The notes under the pieces: generated by a model | Database searches by the model: none | Seen by the model: only the letters and a program-made list of their open reading frames with translations | What the model was told of the DNA's origin: nothing | Shown here: positions 56,245 to 63,951 of the stretch, in pieces | Layout of the letters: the number at the start of each line of letters is the position of its first letter | Position numbering within the stretch: position 1 is the first letter of the stretch | NCBI GenBank assembly: GCA_020852815.1 | Contig: JADZAN010000047.1 | Coordinates: 62,001 to 126,000, forward strand | Direction: 5' to 3' | Length of the DNA stretch: 64,000 bases | DNA from: Gemmatimonadaceae bacterium | Lineage (GTDB): Bacteria; Gemmatimonadota; Gemmatimonadetes; Gemmatimonadales; Gemmatimonadaceae | Position numbers and translations under genes: made by a program

Positions 56245-59200
56245 TCAGTGGAAGTCGTGGCTGCGGGCCCACGCCTCGCCCGCGTCGGCCTTGAGGGGGG
56301 TGAACTGCTCGCCGCGCAGGTTGACGACGTTGCTCTCGACCTGGAGCGTTCCGCGGACGAGGAGGAGTGGGGAGGTGGAGATCATCAACGCCTGGCGTTC
56401 GAAGCGCTTGGGGGTGACGACGACGTTGAGGATCCCGGTTTCGTCTTCCAGCGAGAGGAAGACGAAGCCCTTGGCGGTTCCTGGGCGCTGGCGGCAGATC
56501 ACGAGCCCGGCGTGGGCGACGCGTTCGCCGTCCCGTCCGTGTTGTTGCAGCTCGCGGGATGTGCGGACGCCGTTGGGGTGGAGGAGCTTTCGCAGGTGGC
56601 GCATCGGGTGGCCGTTGAGCGAGAGCCCGGTCAGGCGATAGTCGGCGTCGGTGGTCTCGAGGCGGGACATAGCGGGGAGTGGGGGGCGCGTGGGGCGCGG
56701 TCGCGATGGGGCGAGGGGGCCGGCGTCGCCGCGCAGCGCCTCGAGGACACGCCAGAGGGCGACGCGCCGGCGCTCAGCGGGCGGGACATCGGGGACCATG
56801 GTGTCGAAGGCACCGGCCTCGGCGAGGGCGCGAAGCGCGCGCTGGTCGAGCCCTGCGCGCTGGATGACGTCGGGGATGTCGTGGAAGGGGCCCTGCTCGA
56901 GGGCGCGTTCGAGCTTCTCGCGGGCGGCGGCGCCGAGTCCGTGCACGAGGCGGAGGCCGAGACGAACGGCGGGCGCCGCACTCCCATCTCTCGTCGCCTG
57001 CCTCCTGTCGCGCCGCTCGTCAGGCCTGTCGGCATGCCGGTCATCGAGTGTCCCGTCGGGTGTCCCGTCCTGCCTAACGCGAATCGCCACCTCCACGCCC
57101 ACCGGCACCACCACCTTCCCGTTCCGCAGTTCCAGCGCGTGGTCCCAGGCCGAGCGCGTGAGGTCGACCGGGCGCACCTCCACGCCATGCCGCTTCGCAT
57201 CCTCGATCAGCGTCCCCACCGAGTAGAAGCCCATCGGCTGTGCGTTGAGGATCGCCGCCGTGAACTCGGGGGCGTAGTAGTGGCGCAGGTACGCCGACGC
57301 GTAGACGATGAGCGCGAAGCTCGCCGAGTGCGACTCGGGGAAGCCGTAGTCGGCAAAGGCGTTGATCTGGTTGTAGATCCGGCGTGCGACATCCTCGGGG
57401 ATCCCGTTGCGCGCCATTCCGGTGATGAGCTTCTCGCAGATGGCCGCCATCCGTTCGCGCGAGCGCTTGTGCCCCATCGCCCGGCGCAGGATGTCGGCCT
57501 CTCCCGGCGTGAACCCCGCCGCGGCGATCGCCACCTGCATCCCCTGCTCCTGGAAGAGCGGGATGCCTAACGTGCGCTTGAGGATCGGCTCCACCGCGGG
57601 GTGCGGATAGGTCACCGGTTCCTCGCCCGCGCGCCGCCGCAGGTACGGGTGCACCATCTCCCCCTGGATCGGCCCCGGGCGGATGAGCGCGACCTCCACC
57701 ACGAGGTCATAGAAGCAGCGCGGCTTGAGGCGCGGGAGCGTGTTCATCTGCGCCCGGCTCTCCACCTGGAAGACGCCGATCGTGTCGGCCGCGCACAGGT
57801 CGTCGTACACCGCCTGGTCCGTCATGTCGAGCTGCCCGAGGTCGAGCGTGACCCCGCGGGCGGCGCGGATGTACTTGAGGCAGTCCTGCAGCACCGTCAG
57901 CATCCCCAGGCCTAACAAGTCGATCTTGACCAATCCCACCGGGTCGAGGTCGTCGCGCTCCCACTGGATCACCGTGCGGTTCGGCATCGACGCCGGCTCG
58001 ATCGGGACCACCGTGCGCAACGGTTCGGCGGTGAGGACGAAGCCGCCGACGTGGATGGAGCGGTGGCGCGGCGCCTGGTGCAGCCCCTCGACGATGTCGG
58101 GGAGGACGTGCACCCGGCGGTCGTTGGGATCGAGCCCGGCCTGCGCGAAGATGGTGGAGGCGAGCGGGGAGGCGGGGTCGGCGGCCGTGTCCCGGGAAGT
58201 GCCTAACGACCTCCCCTCCGCCTCCAGGCGATCCACCAACGACTGGTTGCGGGTGTTCTGCTGCAGCGTGACCTGCGCGTTGGCGTTGCCGAACGGTTCA
58301 TAGCCCTTCGAGTGGCGCGCCCCTCCGGGCCGGGCCGACGCCGCATCCAAGGGCGCCCCTCCATCCGCCTGGTCTCCAGCGTTGCCAGCGCCGCTGTCGT
58401 TCGTGCCGCTGTCGTTCGTGCCGCTGTCGCCGACGCGCGTCCGGCCGCCGGAATCCCATTCATGCTTCCGCCGCTTTGCCAACTCCGGGCGCCCGCTTCG
58501 CGCCGCTGCCTCTCGCGCCAGTCGATGCGCGTTCTCCCGCGCGTCCCCCCGCGCGTCCCCCCGCGCATTCCCCCGCGCGTCCTCTCCCGCGCTACGCTCC
58601 GGCGCACTCCCGTCTCCCCCCAGCCTTCGCTGGGGCAAGCTTTCCCGTCTCCCGTCCCGCTCTTCCCGCCCTTCGCCCCCCAGCCCGCGCCGGTGCGCCG
58701 CCTTCTCCTCCCGCATCCGCGTCGTCGCCTCCGTCCCCCGCACCATCCCCTGGCCCATGCGCTCCGCCAGCAGCCGTTCGGCACTCCACTCGTCGCGCTG
58801 CCTGCGCGGGTCGTCGGGAATCCCCGGGCGGTCGCTCTGCGGGTCGAGGTCGTACTCGCGCGCCAGCATGTCGGCCGGCGCCGCCCCTCCCCGCAACGCC
58901 TCCGCGGTCGCCTTCGCCGAAAACCGGTCGCTGAGGGCGCTGAGCACGTCGGCCTGCTGCACCGAGAACCCCAAAACACGCGCAGCATCACGCACCGCCG
59001 AGCGGCCGCGATAGGTGATCTGCTCGCAGACCATCGCCGCGTGCTCGCGCCCGTACCGTGCATAGACGTACTGCAGCACCTGTTCGCGGTCGCGGTGCGC
59101 GAAGTCGATGTCGATGTCCGGGGCCTCCTGGCGCTCGTCGCTCAGGAAACGCTCGAAGAGGAGTTCGAGCCGGATCGGGTCCACCGCGGTGATCCCGAGG

Positions 59201-60270
59201 CAGTAGCACACGGCGGAATTCGCCGCCGAGCCGCGCCCCTGGCACAGCACCCCCGTGCGATGGGCGAAACGGACGATGTCCCACACGATCAGGAAGTAGC
59301 CGGCGAGCCCCAGGCGCCGGATCGTGTCGAGTTCATGCGCCACCTGCGCCCGGTGCTTGTCGGTGCACTGCTCGCCCCAGCGTTCGCGGATTCCCTGCTC
59401 GACCAGTCGCGCGAGGTATTCATCGGCGCTCACCCCCGGCGGGAGCGGAAAGGTCGGGAGCGTGGGGCGCAGGTCCTCCAGCCGGAACGTGCATCGCTCG
59501 GCGATTGCCAGCGATGCGCGCAGCCCGGCGTCGTCGCCGCGCCAACGGCGTTGCAGCTGCTGGCGCCCCTTCAGGTACCACTCTCCGTTGGGGCGCAAGC
59601 GCTGGCCCATCGTGTCGAGCGTCCGCTCGTGGCGCAGCGCCGAGAGGACGTCGTGGACCACCCGCCCCGTGGGAAGGGCGTAGTGCACGTCGTTCGTCAC
59701 CACCCACGGGATCCCCAGCGACTTGGCGAGGGGGATCAGGTGGCGGACGAGGGCCCGTTCCTCGGGGAGGTGATGATCCCATACCTCGATGGCGAGGCGC
59801 CCCTCGAAGAGGTCGAGGAGTGTGGCGGCCGCCTCGCACGCCCCGTCCACATCGCCAGCTGCAATCCGCGAGGGGATCCACCCGCGCGGGCATCCGGTGA
59901 GGGCAAAGATCCCGTCGGTGTGGGCGGCGAGCGTGTCGAGCGAGACTCGCGGCTCCCCGCGCGGGTTGTCCATCCGCCCCCGCGTGATGAGCGAGGCGAT
60001 GTTGCCATACCCCGTGCGCGACTCGGCCAGGAGAACCAGGTGTGATGGGAGGCCGTCGATGTCGAGCGTGAGTTCGCAGCCGAGGATCCCGCCGATCCCC
60101 GCCTCACGTGCCGCCTGGGCAAAGCGGACCGCGCCGCCCAGGTCGTCGTGGTCGGTGAGGGCGAGCGCCGGCATGCCTAACGCCTTGGCCCGCGCGACCA
60201 GCGCCTCGGGTTCGGAGGCACCGTCGAGCAGCGAGAAGACGGAGTGGCAGTGCAGTTCGGTATACGGCAG
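56245..60270 (-). CDS. dnaE2: Error-prone DNA polymerase DnaE2 (C-family)
   Basis: Translesion polymerase of the ImuA-ImuB-DnaE2 mutasome. 1341 residues counted from the CTG at 60270. PHP domain begins ELHCHSVFSLLDGA. Catalytic aspartates are in PDIDIDF (about 463-469) and in LVKIDLLGLGM. An insertion of about 230 residues, at about 58,180-58,880, is rich in Arg/Gly/Asp and repeats (for example DSGTNDSGTND, ARGDARGDAR) and splits the usual region before VGGFVLTAEPL. A second short one lies in the C-terminal part. There is no ATG, GTG or TTG between the imuB stop and this N-terminus; alternatives are CTG 60348 (CTGA overlap with imuB) or TTG 60393 inside imuB. Confidence 0.93.
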   Translation of the reverse strand: MPYTELHCHSVFSLLDGASEPEALVARAKALGMPALALTDHDDLGGAVRFAQAAREAGIGGILGCELTLDIDGLPSHLVLLAESRTGYGNIASLITRGRMDNPRGEPRVSLDTLAAHTDGIFALTGCPRGWIPSRIAAGDVDGACEAAATLLDLFEGRLAIEVWDHHLPEERALVRHLIPLAKSLGIPWVVTNDVHYALPTGRVVHDVLSALRHERTLDTMGQRLRPNGEWYLKGRQQLQRRWRGDDAGLRASLAIAERCTFRLEDLRPTLPTFPLPPGVSADEYLARLVEQGIRERWGEQCTDKHRAQVAHELDTIRRLGLAGYFLIVWDIVRFAHRTGVLCQGRGSAANSAVCYCLGITAVDPIRLELLFERFLSDERQEAPDIDIDFAHRDREQVLQYVYARYGREHAAMVCEQITYRGRSAVRDAARVLGFSVQQADVLSALSDRFSAKATAEALRGGAAPADMLAREYDLDPQSDRPGIPDDPRRQRDEWSAERLLAERMGQGMVRGTEATTRMREEKAAHRRGLGGEGREERDGRRESLPQRRLGGDGSAPERSAGEDARGNARGDARGDARENAHRLAREAAARSGRPELAKRRKHEWDSGGRTRVGDSGTNDSGTNDSGAGNAGDQADGGAPLDAASARPGGARHSKGYEPFGNANAQVTLQQNTRNQSLVDRLEAEGRSLGTSRDTAADPASPLASTIFAQAGLDPNDRRVHVLPDIVEGLHQAPRHRSIHVGGFVLTAEPLRTVVPIEPASMPNRTVIQWERDDLDPVGLVKIDLLGLGMLTVLQDCLKYIRAARGVTLDLGQLDMTDQAVYDDLCAADTIGVFQVESRAQMNTLPRLKPRCFYDLVVEVALIRPGPIQGEMVHPYLRRRAGEEPVTYPHPAVEPILKRTLGIPLFQEQGMQVAIAAAGFTPGEADILRRAMGHKRSRERMAAICEKLITGMARNGIPEDVARRIYNQINAFADYGFPESHSASFALIVYASAYLRHYYAPEFTAAILNAQPMGFYSVGTLIEDAKRHGVEVRPVDLTRSAWDHALELRNGKVVVPVGVEVAIRVRQDGTPDGTLDDRHADRPDERRDRRQATRDGSAAPAVRLGLRLVHGLGAAAREKLERALEQGPFHDIPDVIQRAGLDQRALRALAEAGAFDTMVPDVPPAERRRVALWRVLEALRGDAGPLAPSRPRPTRPPLPAMSRLETTDADYRLTGLSLNGHPMRHLRKLLHPNGVRTSRELQQHGRDGERVAHAGLVICRQRPGTAKGFVFLSLEDETGILNVVVTPKRFERQALMISTSPLLLVRGTLQVESNVVNLRGEQFTPLKADAGEAWARSHDFH
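58390..58430. repeat. 15-bp tandem repeat in dnaE2
   Basis: Unit GCCGCTGTCGTTCGT at 58390 and 58405 and a partial copy at 58420; codes for the DSGTN tract on the minus strand. Confidence 0.85.
58535..58590. repeat. 12-bp tandem repeat in dnaE2
   Basis: Units of the type CCCGCGCGTCCC, about four copies, coding for the GNARGDARGDAREN tract on the minus strand. Confidence 0.8.
58603..58667 (-). repeat. Palindromic repeat element, copy A, inside dnaE2 coding sequence
   Basis: Contains the hairpin CCCCAGC-CTTC-GCTGGGG at 58618-58635, then GCAAGC and a pyrimidine-rich tail TTTCCCGTCTCCCG. On the minus strand the whole reads GGGAAGAGCGGGACGGGAGA... as in the coxG leader. Translated in frame as ESLPQRRLGGD. 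Confidence 0.8.
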
Positions 60271-60304
60271 AAGACGAGAAGACGAGAAGACGAGAAGACG
60301 AGAG
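60269..60304. repeat. 8-bp tandem repeat at the imuB-dnaE2 junction
   Basis: AGAAGACG, four exact copies at 60269-60300 and a partial one. It lies between the imuB stop and the dnaE2 conserved start. The period is not a multiple of three. Confidence 0.9.
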
Positions 60305-60344: not shown

Positions 60345-62876
60345 TCAGTCGTACCAGCCGTGGATGAACCAGGCGTTGTCGGAGGCGGTGCAATCGCGGT
60401 AAAGGACGAGATGGCTGGTCCCCGTGGTGTCCTCGCAGCGCCAGTAGTCGCGGGCGTAGCCCGATTCCCACCAGTCGCCGGTGAGGCGTTCGGGGCCAAT
60501 GGCGCGGGCCACGGTGATCACCTGCTGGCGCCACCGGATGGCGCGCGGCGGGCTCGTCGCGCGGCCGTCGGCGGTGCGGACCTCGGCGCGTTCCGGCGTC
60601 TCCAGTTGACGCAGCGCTGGCGCGCGCAGGAGCGACGGGGGAAGCGCTCGCGCGGCCAGGCGTGGCATGGCGCCGGGGGCGCCTTCGCGCACGAGGGTGA
60701 GCGCCCGGGTGCCTAACGCTTCGCGCGCAGGGTCCGCGTCCCGTGCCGGTGGGCGCTCGGCCGCTGCGATGGCGTGTGCGGAGATTGCCGGGGACGACGA
60801 ACGCGCCAGCCCTCCTCGCCCGTCGCCCCCCCTCGCGCCGCTCCCGTCCCCCATCGGATCCTCCACCCGTTCCCATTCCCCGGCGCGCTCGGGCCGGTGC
60901 GTGTCGCGCAGCACCGGGCGCACGATGGCTCCCGTGCCTAACGTTGCACGCAGGCGGGCGAAGGCGGCATCGGCGGCGGCGGGGTCGCGCCAGGCCGGGT
61001 CGAGCAACTCGCCCTGGGCACCGTGCAGCGGCGCCGTGGCGGTGATGGCCACCGTTACCGCGCAGACCGGGGCATCGAGGCGCCACTCCTCCAGGAGTGC
61101 ACGGCATCGCTCGAGGAGCGGGACCACGCGGGCCAAGGGGCGCGGGAGGCGCACCTCGCGCGTGATCGTGTGGGCGCGGGTGGCGGTCGGGAGCGCCCCG
61201 CGTGCGTCGTCGAGGGCCAGGGTGATGGCCACCACTGCGGCCGAGCGCCCGTCATGCACCAGGTCCTGCACCAAACGATCGAGAGCAGCTCGCACGAGGA
61301 AGAGGATCGGTTCCACCGAGGGGACGCTGGGCGACAGCTCGGCGACGACGGCGCGCGGGGCGTCGAGGCGGGCGAGCACCGGGCGCCGGCGATCCTCGCC
61401 GCGCGCCAGGCGCCACGCCGCCACGCCTTCCTCGCCCCAGCGTCGTTCCACGTCCTCGACGGTGAGCGCGGCAAGGGCCCCCACGGTGCGCAGCCCAAGC
61501 GCCTGCAGCGTCTCGCGCAACTCTTCATCCATCGGGACCAGGCCGAGGGGGGCTGGGGCGAGGTAGGCAGCGCAACCATCGGGTGGAACGATGACGATTC
61601 CCTCGTCCATGGGTGCGTCCTCGGCGCTCGCGCGTCGCGGGCGCCGCGGGTTGTCGTGCGAGTTGTCGTGCGGGTTGTCGCGCGGGTTGTCGCGCGAACG
61701 CCTGGCTGGTGTCGTGGGGCTGGTGGGGGAGGCCCACGTGGCGGCGCGGGCGGCGACGCACGAGTCGGCGATCCCGACGCGTGCTCCTGGGTGCCAGCGG
61801 CGGGCGAGGGCGAGGAGGCGGCGGGCCAGCGCACGTTCGCCGCCTAACGCTTCGAGCCCACTGGCGCCGATCCACCAGGTGCCGGGGCTACCGGCGACCG
61901 GGGTCACTTGCGGGCTTGCCTGCACGAAGGCGGCCGTGGCCCGTGTCACGGCACGCGTGAGTGCGTCCTCGTCCCAATGGGCCACCCGGAGTGTCGCGCA
62001 GCGCGAGCGTGCTTCGGCGATCGTCATTCCGGCCCGGATGCGGGCGTCGCCGGCTGCTGCCGTGGCGGCGCGCACGCGCTGGCCATCGAGGAGGACGATG
62101 GGGAGGGCGTCCCAGTGGGGGGCGGGCGGCGTGGGGAGGGGCCCGCCAGGCGCACCAGTGCCGCCAGGCGCACCAGTGCCGCCAGGTGCACCAGTGCCGC
62201 CAGGTGCACCAGGCCCGCGCGGCGCATGAGGCCTGTGCGGCGCACCAAGCCTGGGCGACGCACTGAGGCCGTCAGATGCAAGCATCGTCGGTGCCCGGGC
62301 GGCGGGATTCGCGGTGGGGTTTGCCGCTGGCGTCGGTTGGGGCGTTGGCCAGGGGGCGTTGGTGTTGGTGTTGGCGTTGGCGTTGGCGTTGGGGATGGGC
62401 GTGTTGGGGATGGGCGTGTTGGGGATGGGGGGTGTCATCCTCCCACCCGTCGTATCCACGGCGGGGGGCGAGGAGGAACTCGTCGCGGGCGATGGCCGGC
62501 TCGGCGCATCGGCGCTTGTGCGCGAGGGTGGCACCAGTGGTGCTTGCGGCACCTGCGGCACCTGCGGCACCTGCGGCACCTGCGGCACCTGCGGTACCTG
62601 CGGCACCTGCGGCACCTGCGGTACCTGCGGCACCTGCGATACCCGCGGCACCTGCTGTTCTGGTGTTGTCTGGTGTGTTGGGAGGCGTGGCGGGGTGGCG
62701 GTGCGTCGCGGGATCACCACGTCCTCCACTCCCATGGGGAGGAGGAGTTGTTCGTCGGACCCCGGGGGCGTCAGGAGCGGTCCGTTCCCCGCGGCGATTG
62801 CGTGTTGCCACGCCGCGCCGATCGGGAACCTGGGGATGCGCACACATGCGACGCGCCACTTCGATTGCACAGCCAA
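60345..62876 (-). CDS. imuB: ImuB, Y-family polymerase-like mutasome hub
   Basis: 843 residues from ATG 62876. ImuB is inactive as a polymerase and links ImuA, DnaE2 and the beta clamp. N-terminus VACVRIPRFPIGAAWQ, then an insertion of about 220 residues (at about 62,110-62,780) made of QVPQVPQ, IPNTPIPN and GAPGGTGAPGG repeats. The core resumes with LPIVLLDGQRVRAATAAAGD and MTIAEARSRCATLRVAHWDE, followed by ALGLRTVGALAALTVEDVER and the C-terminal region with LPPSLLRAPALRQLETPERA and TGDWWESGYARDYWRC. Another repeat tract (RDNPRDNPHDNSHDNPR) lies near 61,650. The start is set by the conserved N-terminus and overlaps imuA by 605 bp. Confidence 0.92.
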   Translation of the reverse strand: MAVQSKWRVACVRIPRFPIGAAWQHAIAAGNGPLLTPPGSDEQLLLPMGVEDVVIPRRTATPPRLPTHQTTPEQQVPRVSQVPQVPQVPQVPQVPQVPQVPQVPQVPQVPQAPLVPPSRTSADAPSRPSPATSSSSPPAVDTTGGRMTPPIPNTPIPNTPIPNANANANTNTNAPWPTPQPTPAANPTANPAARAPTMLASDGLSASPRLGAPHRPHAPRGPGAPGGTGAPGGTGAPGGTGAPGGPLPTPPAPHWDALPIVLLDGQRVRAATAAAGDARIRAGMTIAEARSRCATLRVAHWDEDALTRAVTRATAAFVQASPQVTPVAGSPGTWWIGASGLEALGGERALARRLLALARRWHPGARVGIADSCVAARAATWASPTSPTTPARRSRDNPRDNPHDNSHDNPRRPRRASAEDAPMDEGIVIVPPDGCAAYLAPAPLGLVPMDEELRETLQALGLRTVGALAALTVEDVERRWGEEGVAAWRLARGEDRRRPVLARLDAPRAVVAELSPSVPSVEPILFLVRAALDRLVQDLVHDGRSAAVVAITLALDDARGALPTATRAHTITREVRLPRPLARVVPLLERCRALLEEWRLDAPVCAVTVAITATAPLHGAQGELLDPAWRDPAAADAAFARLRATLGTGAIVRPVLRDTHRPERAGEWERVEDPMGDGSGARGGDGRGGLARSSSPAISAHAIAAAERPPARDADPAREALGTRALTLVREGAPGAMPRLAARALPPSLLRAPALRQLETPERAEVRTADGRATSPPRAIRWRQQVITVARAIGPERLTGDWWESGYARDYWRCEDTTGTSHLVLYRDCTASDNAWFIHGWYD
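61648..61700. repeat. 12-bp tandem repeat in imuB
   Basis: Unit of type GGGTTGTCGTGC, four to five copies, coding for the (RDNP/HDNS) tract on the minus strand. Confidence 0.85.
62145..62213. repeat. 18-bp tandem repeat in imuB
   Basis: GCCAGGCGCACCAGTGCC at 62145, 62163, 62181 and a partial copy at 62199; codes for GAPGGT on the minus strand. Confidence 0.9.
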
Positions 62877-63825
62877 CCTCCACGAGATGATGCGTTCCGC
62901 CCTTCTCGACCGTCACCTGCAACACGAGCGGGGTACGAAGCGCCCCGCTTTCGCCTGGGACATGGTGCGCGCCGTGGTCATCGAGGACTGGGCGTGCGGG
63001 CTCCGCCGTTCGTCCTGTTCGCGTGCGCGAGGGTTCTTGCGAAGGTTCTTGCGAGGGTGCTCGGGATGGCTCTCGCGAGGGAGGGCGCGTTGGTTCCCGC
63101 CATGGCGGTCGTCCCGGCGGGATGGGTGATCCATCGCGCGTGCGGTGGGCGTGCACGCGCAGGCGGACGGCGCCTCCAACGGCAGCGCGTCCACTCGGAG
63201 CGCGCCCGCCTGCCGCGCGCCCACCCGCCGCGCGCCCACCCGCAGCGTGCCCACCCGCCGCGCGCCCGTCCGCAACGCCGCGGTCGGAGGCGTGGCCGCC
63301 TTCGAGGGGCTCCTCGTCGCGCAGCATCACGAAGGCGGCATTGCCTTCGCGCGCCAGGCGGGTGAGGCGCACCGCGACGCCGTGCGAAAGCGAACCGCTT
63401 CCATCGAGGATCACCAACCCGAAGGCCCCGCTGCGCAGGAGGACATCGGCGCACCAGGGGCCGTGCGCCACCGCGGAGGCCGGCGTGGTGCGGCTGGCCA
63501 GCGGCGGGCGCACGATCCAGAGGCGTTCCGTCGTCGCCAGGGCGGCCCAGTCGGCCGGGGCCAGGGTGCGTGCGGCGTCCACGTATGCAACCCATCGTTT
63601 GTCCGCGAGCGCCTGGGCGACGATCTCGCGCACCAGCGTCGTCTTGCCGCTCCCGCGCCTCCCCACGATCTCCGTCAACCGCCCCAGGGGGAGCCCGCCG
63701 TCCGACAGCACGGCATCGAGCGCCGCGATTCCCGTCGGCATCCCGGTGGGAATCCCGTTCCCGGGGCGCGGGGGTGGGGCGATGACGGCCGCGAGTTGCT
63801 GGCGGAGGGTGGCGAGAGACGTCAT
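62272..63825 (-). CDS. imuA: ImuA, RecA-like mutasome protein with repetitive C-terminal extension
   Basis: 517 residues from ATG 63825. RecA-fold core: GIAALDAVLSDGGLPLGRLT, Walker A GRRGSGKTT, LVILDGSGSLSHG, and a repetitive insertion of AAGGR/HAAGGR (about 190-225) plus Ser/Pro/Glu repeats (REPSRAPSQEPSQEPSRTR). The conserved part ends near VTVEKGGTHHLVEVGC; the frame then stays open for another 605 bp inside imuB, giving about 200 more residues of Ala/Gly and Pro/His/Gln repeats. ImuA binds ImuB and tunes SOS mutagenesis. The expected length for the family is well under 300. Confidence 0.88.
   Translation of the reverse strand: MTSLATLRQQLAAVIAPPPRPGNGIPTGMPTGIAALDAVLSDGGLPLGRLTEIVGRRGSGKTTLVREIVAQALADKRWVAYVDAARTLAPADWAALATTERLWIVRPPLASRTTPASAVAHGPWCADVLLRSGAFGLVILDGSGSLSHGVAVRLTRLAREGNAAFVMLRDEEPLEGGHASDRGVADGRAAGGHAAGGRAAGGRAAGGRAPSGRAAVGGAVRLRVHAHRTRDGSPIPPGRPPWREPTRPPSREPSRAPSQEPSQEPSRTRTGRTAEPARPVLDDHGAHHVPGESGALRTPLVLQVTVEKGGTHHLVEVGCAIEVARRMCAHPQVPDRRGVATRNRRGERTAPDAPGVRRTTPPPHGSGGRGDPATHRHPATPPNTPDNTRTAGAAGIAGAAGTAGAAGAAGTAGAAGAAGAAGAAGAASTTGATLAHKRRCAEPAIARDEFLLAPRRGYDGWEDDTPHPQHAHPQHAHPQRQRQRQHQHQRPLANAPTDASGKPHRESRRPGTDDACI
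62358..62432. repeat. 6-bp and 15-bp tandem repeats in the imuA/imuB overlap
   Basis: GTTGGC/GTTGGT hexamers, about six, then GGGGATGGGCGTGTT-type units, about three. On the minus strand in the imuB frame they give the (NA)n/(NT)n and IPNTP tracts; in the imuA frame HPQHAHPQHAHPQR. Confidence 0.85.
62543..62655. repeat. 9-bp tandem repeat in the imuA/imuB overlap
   Basis: GGCACCTGC unit, about twelve copies. On the minus strand in the imuB frame it codes QVPQVPQ, in the imuA frame AGAAGAAG. Confidence 0.9.
63010..63100. repeat. 12-bp-type tandem repeat in imuA
   Basis: Units around GGTTCTTGCGAG, diverged, coding for the REPSRAPSQEPSQEPS tract. Confidence 0.65.
63198..63275. repeat. 15-bp tandem repeat in imuA
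   Basis: CGCGCGCCCACCCGC-type unit, four to five copies; codes for the (GRAAG)n tract on the minus strand. Confidence 0.85.
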
Positions 63826-63890: not shown

Positions 63891-63933
63891 GGGAGTGCCT
63901 AACGCGGATGTCCGGGAAGGAACTGCGGAAACC

Positions 63934-63951
63934 GAACAAAGACCGAAGTTC
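63934..63951. promoter_or_regulatory. Possible LexA-type operator upstream of imuA
   Basis: Inverted repeat GAAC-N10-GTTC about 110 bp ahead of the imuA start. The spacing does not match the best-known LexA boxes, so this is only a candidate. Confidence 0.2.

Follow-up and report, generated by a model that had tools for sequence, protein, structure and literature searches.

The closest described system to the locus analysed here is the imuA-imuB-dnaE2 mutasome cassette of the ImuA3 type, which has an active-site-bearing ImuA (PMC12926913). The two have in common the gene order, a RecA-like ImuA with a Walker A motif, a Y-family-like ImuB and a downstream DnaE2, but only the present locus combines these with a long dual-coding overlap of imuA and imuB and with a QLxLxL peptide in the N-terminal loop of ImuB. 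Unidirectional terminal overlaps of prokaryotic genes are mostly 1-4 nt long, and those of more than 60 bp appear to be selected against (PMC3887535, PMC2542354); as in such ordinary overlaps, the stop codon of the first gene lies within the second, but the imuA/imuB overlap measures about 60-615 bp, is family-wide, and has had selection measured on both of its frames. Overlaps in which a pair of cellular genes shares a long dual-coding stretch are rare, and they are usually regarded with doubt. In Thermus (Feltens 2003, as summarized in PMC9841429), rnpA and rpmH are likewise two functional genes that overlap on the same strand and are both expressed; according to that summary, however, rpmH is nested in rnpA and one initiation site is shared, whereas imuA and imuB overlap terminally, with an apparently separate internal start. 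A text search of polymerase surveys found mention of neither Gemmatimonadota nor such an overlap, and the open-access literature searched (subscription papers lay outside the search) contains no description of an imuA/imuB overlap and does not mention Gemmatimonas and ImuA together.

The window, which is the whole 64,000-nucleotide stretch of Gemmatimonadaceae DNA that was analysed, carries dnaE2 downstream of imuB and therefore an imuA-imuB-dnaE2 mutagenesis cassette, in which the overlap of the first two genes is very probably an ancestral, family-wide, same-strand dual-coding region. The genes and the putative initiation signal of imuB are as follows:

62272..63825, minus strand: imuA, an open reading frame from ATG 63825 to TGA 62274-62272, 517 aa
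62877..62881, minus strand: GGAGG, putative Shine-Dalgarno sequence of imuB, within the VEV codons of imuA
60345..62870, minus strand: imuB, encoding a Y-family-like protein of 841 aa from GTG 62870, based on Pfam and family comparison
56245..60276, minus strand: dnaE2, third gene of the cassette (match of 1258 bits to NF004225, error-prone DNA polymerase, against a cut-off of 939; start unrefined)

ImuA consists of a RecA-like ATPase core (Walker A GRRGSGKTT), a repeat-bearing insertion, a VEKGG strand, the motif CAHPQVPDRRGVA and a C-terminal tail encoded inside imuB. The match to the Pfam RecA model (46.6 bits, cut-off 27) identifies the ATPase core, and the best NCBIfam match is ImuA_translesion (NF033429) at 54.7 bits, below a cut-off of 150 that is reached by no genome of the sister family f3 and by no control genome. 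The protein is filed as ImuA-like on gene context, imuA directly preceding imuB and dnaE2. The NCBIfam ImuA model was dropped for counting, as it also matches genomes such as E. coli, presumably via RecA.

ImuB has the Y-family fold according to Pfam IMS (PF00817, 28.1 bits, cut-off 23.2), and its match to PF11799 is just below the cut-off (20.1 bits versus 20.7). An N-terminal strand, VACVRIPRFPIGA, is followed by a loop of about 240 aa, and the core resumes at HWDALPIVLLDG (62117). Read by eye, VRIPRFPIG occupies the place of DMDxFF in active Y-family enzymes, a possible loss of the catalytic acidic residues. The usual clamp site of ImuB near the little finger (GAQGELLDPAW, 60990-61022) seems to be kept. 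In DnaE2, the model match is split (5-447 and 707-1343) by about 260 residues (window 58300-59100), and repeats at 58390-58429 and 58527-58592 fall within this gap; repeat-rich insertions are common to all three cassette proteins. Between imuB and dnaE2, an 8-bp repeat (AGAAGACG x4.4) is located at 60269-60303, while the units of the repeats internal to imuA and imuB are divisible by three.

An earlier sequence-only reading of the window had put the start of imuB at the peptide VACVRIPRFP, near 62876. The peptide is correct, and on the minus strand the frame extends uninterrupted from TTG 62876 as far as 60345, but the start codon is more likely GTG 62870, two codons further on, because GGAGG lies 6 nt upstream of this GTG but abuts TTG 62876, and because valine or methionine recurs at this position in relatives, several of which (L035, L101 and L111, for example) have a stop codon immediately upstream. 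A pentamer resembling a Shine-Dalgarno sequence occupies the matching position in 70 of the 78 pairs compared in the family.

The same reading had described imuA as running about 600 bp into imuB in a different frame, with about 200 codons read twice through low-complexity DNA, and this description is borne out: imuA stops at 62274-62272, 191 codons past the imuB motif, and its repeats are located among the features of the overlap:

62272..62870, minus strand: dual-coding overlap of the imuA 3' end and the imuB 5' end, 599 bp if imuB starts at GTG 62870
62806..62852, minus strand: doubly conserved start of the overlap, VACVRIPRFPIGA in ImuB and CAHPQVPDRRGVA in ImuA
62733..62756, minus strand: DEQLLLPM in the N-terminal loop of ImuB, candidate beta-clamp-binding motif
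62545..62655, minus strand: twelve copies of a 9-bp tandem repeat, read as AGAAGTAGAAG in ImuA and VPQVPQ in ImuB, with both frames preserved
62470..62526, minus strand: conserved ImuA C-terminal block LAHKRRCAEPAIARDEFLL, from comparison with the congener (G002, locus L135)
62355..62429, minus strand: second set of tandem repeats, with 6- and 15-bp units, near the imuA end and absent from the congener

Comparative genomics extends the overlap to the family. ImuA matches were found in 103 of 179 Gemmatimonadaceae genomes (E <= 1e-14), and about 100 loci were retrieved for comparison. In 78 linked pairs from about 15 genera (including the window and its congener, and L106, which ends at a contig edge), imuA continues beyond the CVRIPRF motif of imuB by 59-614 bp, in a single phase throughout. 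L046, with an overlap of 152 bp, was misassigned by sequence pattern and was excluded from later tests. Two linked loci deviate, L063 and L125, both with a disrupted imuA (in L125 the frame is broken upstream), and an imuA stop near 62876, for which the sequence-only reading had proposed that orthologues be checked, occurs in none of the intact linked relatives. The sister family f3, which belongs to the same taxonomic order, has a short overlap of roughly 80-90 bp in this phase (L047, L048), where ImuB begins RIACVRIGRFAIGAL and ImuA ends ..AVRDRR... Since nearly all linked pairs of the family and those of f3 overlap in phase, the overlap is older than the repeats of the window. It is most likely ancestral to the Gemmatimonadaceae; on this comparison it is a real and old feature, no accident of repeats, with both readings protected by evolution. 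In L063 (genus g14) the end of imuA is altered and precedes a new, separate start of imuB, an arrangement that looks like a duplicated and then dismantled overlap. In genus g20 (L073, L074, L078, L080) the ImuB loop is very short and the imuA frame enters the conserved ImuB core.

In the overlap, the wobble position of imuB is imuA codon position 1 and that of imuA is imuB position 2; imuA position 2 coincides with imuB position 1. Substitutions in 32 disjoint sister pairs, counted by imuA position (A1/A2/A3), are distributed 28/22/50% before the overlap, 76/14/11% in its first 13 codons, 33/24/43% across the tail and 64/20/15% beyond the stop of imuA. The first 13 codons yield 37 differences across 414 codon comparisons (76% of them at the imuB wobble), with changes per codon reduced to about an eighth and a wB of 0.04. 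A four-class test modelled on OLGenie, a simple count in which transitions were weighted roughly 2:1 and no tree was used, gives wA 0.54 (0.46-0.63) and wB 0.77 (0.64-0.90) in the tail, both intervals being below 1. The flanking regions, which serve as single-frame controls, behave as single-frame coding (wA 0.49 and wB 0.98 before the overlap, wA 1.33 and wB 0.28 after it), the post-overlap wA indicating that the baseline of the count is not exactly 1. The window and its congener alone, a single pair with no interval, give wA 0.66 and wB 1.06 in the tail, and in the 24 sequences of genus g23 a sliding window shows the constraint being handed over along the sequence. By these patterns the tail is apparently read in the ImuA frame and, with a weaker signal, in that of ImuB; the purifying selection looked for in dual coding is seen in both frames, the imuA frame being the more constrained. 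The tail is thus not merely what the DNA of imuB happens to encode, as had been supposed from the sequence of the window, but is evidently selected as ImuA, judging by the substitutions.

The ImuA block ATLAHKRRCAEPAI[A/G]RDEFLL illustrates this selection at close range. Over its 63 nt the window and the congener have 9 differences, of which eight fall on third positions of imuA codons and the ninth on a second position, with one ImuA residue altered, and ImuB diverges over the same DNA (PSRTSADAPSRPSPATSSSS versus PRSPTSDVAPNRPSGATNSS). Earlier in the overlap of the same two genomes, DEQLLLPMG.EDVV of ImuB is unchanged and RRTTPPP.G of ImuA nearly so. The 9-bp repeat sits between the DEQLLLPM island and the KRRCAEP block, upstream of the whole conserved segment KRRCAEP..DEFLL, which relatives also possess; the strict pattern KRR.AE is present in 8 of 21 groups, looser forms having been judged by eye.

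The island in ImuB follows the QLxLxL pattern common to the peptide through which Pol IV binds the beta clamp (QLVLGL, PMC3716654) and to an engineered strong-binding variant of the epsilon subunit (QLSLPL, PMC4478557), from which it differs by its location in an N-terminal loop, being a candidate only. QL.L.[LMF] occurs in 39 of the 78 ImuB loops, representing 9 of the 15 linked genera, at most once in any of 300 rounds of shuffling of the loops, and nowhere in the remaining ImuB sequence (35,813 residues). By analogy we hypothesize that the QLxLxL peptides of ImuB bind the beta clamp.

In three lineages imuA and imuB are not linked. In g4, imuB is located about 7 kb (G134) or about 40 kb (G005) from imuA, no imuB match was found at the overlap position of the locus searched, and stop codons occur in the former imuB frame at this position (L102); the ImuA tail nevertheless still ends in GRRAA[DE]SRYG (GRRAADSRYGRR / GRRAAESRYGHR). 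In g25, which the ImuB tree places as sister to g23 (with support of 0.975; g12 was disregarded as a spurious long branch from a wrong reading frame), imuB is also separate from imuA and the ImuB loop is shorter. The QL motif is retained by the unlinked ImuB proteins of g4 (QLGLGL), g25 (QLTLAL) and g27 (QLALDL), whereas the unlinked ImuA proteins of g25 and g27 have no tail motif. Thus, the ImuA and ImuB elements can exist apart, and the ImuA tail motif is not kept everywhere. Together with its family-wide span and single-frame flanks, such lineages make the overlap a test of how overlapping frames share constraint.

It is unlikely that the imuA frame is open by accident in a GC-rich, neutral, low-complexity insertion of ImuB and that the tail is functionless, even though accidental frames come easily here. 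In the imuA phase the T of a stop codon lands on imuB wobble positions, and the imuB genes contain only one stop per 94 codons in that phase (397 in 37,276); the P of 191 or more open codons in a row is about 0.13, 7.7% of inter-stop runs reach such a length, and the window has other long accidental frames, such as a 485-aa antisense ORF (61908-63365). The length of the open frame was dropped as evidence on account of this P, and it is on conservation between genomes that the significance of the overlap rests. Accident is difficult to reconcile with a wA of 0.54 in the tail versus 1.33 after the overlap, with a KRRCAEP block preserved through third-position changes, or with the similar ImuA tail of g4, a lineage in which the overlap position is not occupied by imuB. 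The sequence-only reading had instead proposed that recent repeat expansion in ImuB supplied stop-free DNA and carried imuA beyond its usual stop. Repeats are indeed present, and past the imuB motif the overlap of the window (191 codons, 575 bp) is 219 bp longer than that of the congener (118 codons, 356 bp), which has a different 15-bp repeat (HMAPQ / HGAPA) where the window has the 9-bp repeat. Expansion between the islands explains this extra length, and for the extra length the proposal remains valid; as the origin of the overlap it is refuted and has very little probability, because every intact linked relative ends imuA inside imuB, so that the usual end of imuA was already there family-wide, and because the conserved ImuA block is positioned beyond the first repeat.

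An error of sequencing or assembly, masking an earlier imuA stop or a change of frame, is extremely improbable: repeats are difficult to assemble, and both same-genus relatives have contig ends in or near imuA or imuB, but the same phase and open frame recur in independent assemblies, including those of the single-contig genomes G024, G095 and G096. Long shared open frames would also permit a programmed frameshift yielding an ImuA-ImuB fusion instead of two proteins. We consider this highly improbable, given that a Shine-Dalgarno-like pentamer and a valine or methionine start precede imuB in most pairs, that imuA and imuB are separate genes in g4 and g25, and that selection on the tail as ImuA extends far past any single slip site.

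For the ancestral dual-coding region, of which alignment of the relatives demonstrates the conservation, the phase and the selection on both frames, we infer that ribosomes translating imuA pass the imuB start and continue for another 20-200 codons, and that ImuB is initiated separately, from the Shine-Dalgarno sequence that lies within the codons of imuA. About the first 13 codons of the overlap are set mainly by the ImuB strand VACVRIPRFPIGA, and they also spell the ImuA motif; past them, the DNA is kept mainly as an ImuA tail, in many genera with a basic block like KRRCAEP, and ImuB reads it as an N-terminal loop that tolerates change and has no more than one island of its own (QLxLxL). Between the islands, tandem repeats whose units are multiples of three expand with both frames intact. 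A more specific proposal, which we regard as tentative and rather less probable than even, is that one stretch of DNA provides an interaction tail of ImuA in one frame and in the other a loop of ImuB that would be its second, N-terminal site of beta-clamp binding, so that the recruiter would be tied to its RecA-like partner by both co-evolution and co-translation. The overlap points in any case to an unstudied tail of ImuA, in which a function may reside, and, unexpectedly, to a candidate clamp site within ImuB; both are relevant to the recruitment of the error-prone DnaE2.

Upstream of imuA, on the minus strand at 63931-63947, is a direct repeat, TTCGGTCTTTGTTCGGT, which is a candidate DNA-damage operator; TTCGGTATTTATTCGGTA-like elements are also present upstream of imuA in several genera. 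The genome contains only two exact copies of TTCGGTCTTTGTTCGGT, about 2.7 kb apart, one upstream of imuA and the other at C47:128665, and the gene downstream of the latter has its best match, below the cut-off, in the Rv2578c-family radical SAM model. The sequence GCCTAACG occurs 31 times in the window on both strands (at 60175, 60711, 60936, 61842 and 63897, for example), compared with 1.05 occurrences expected.
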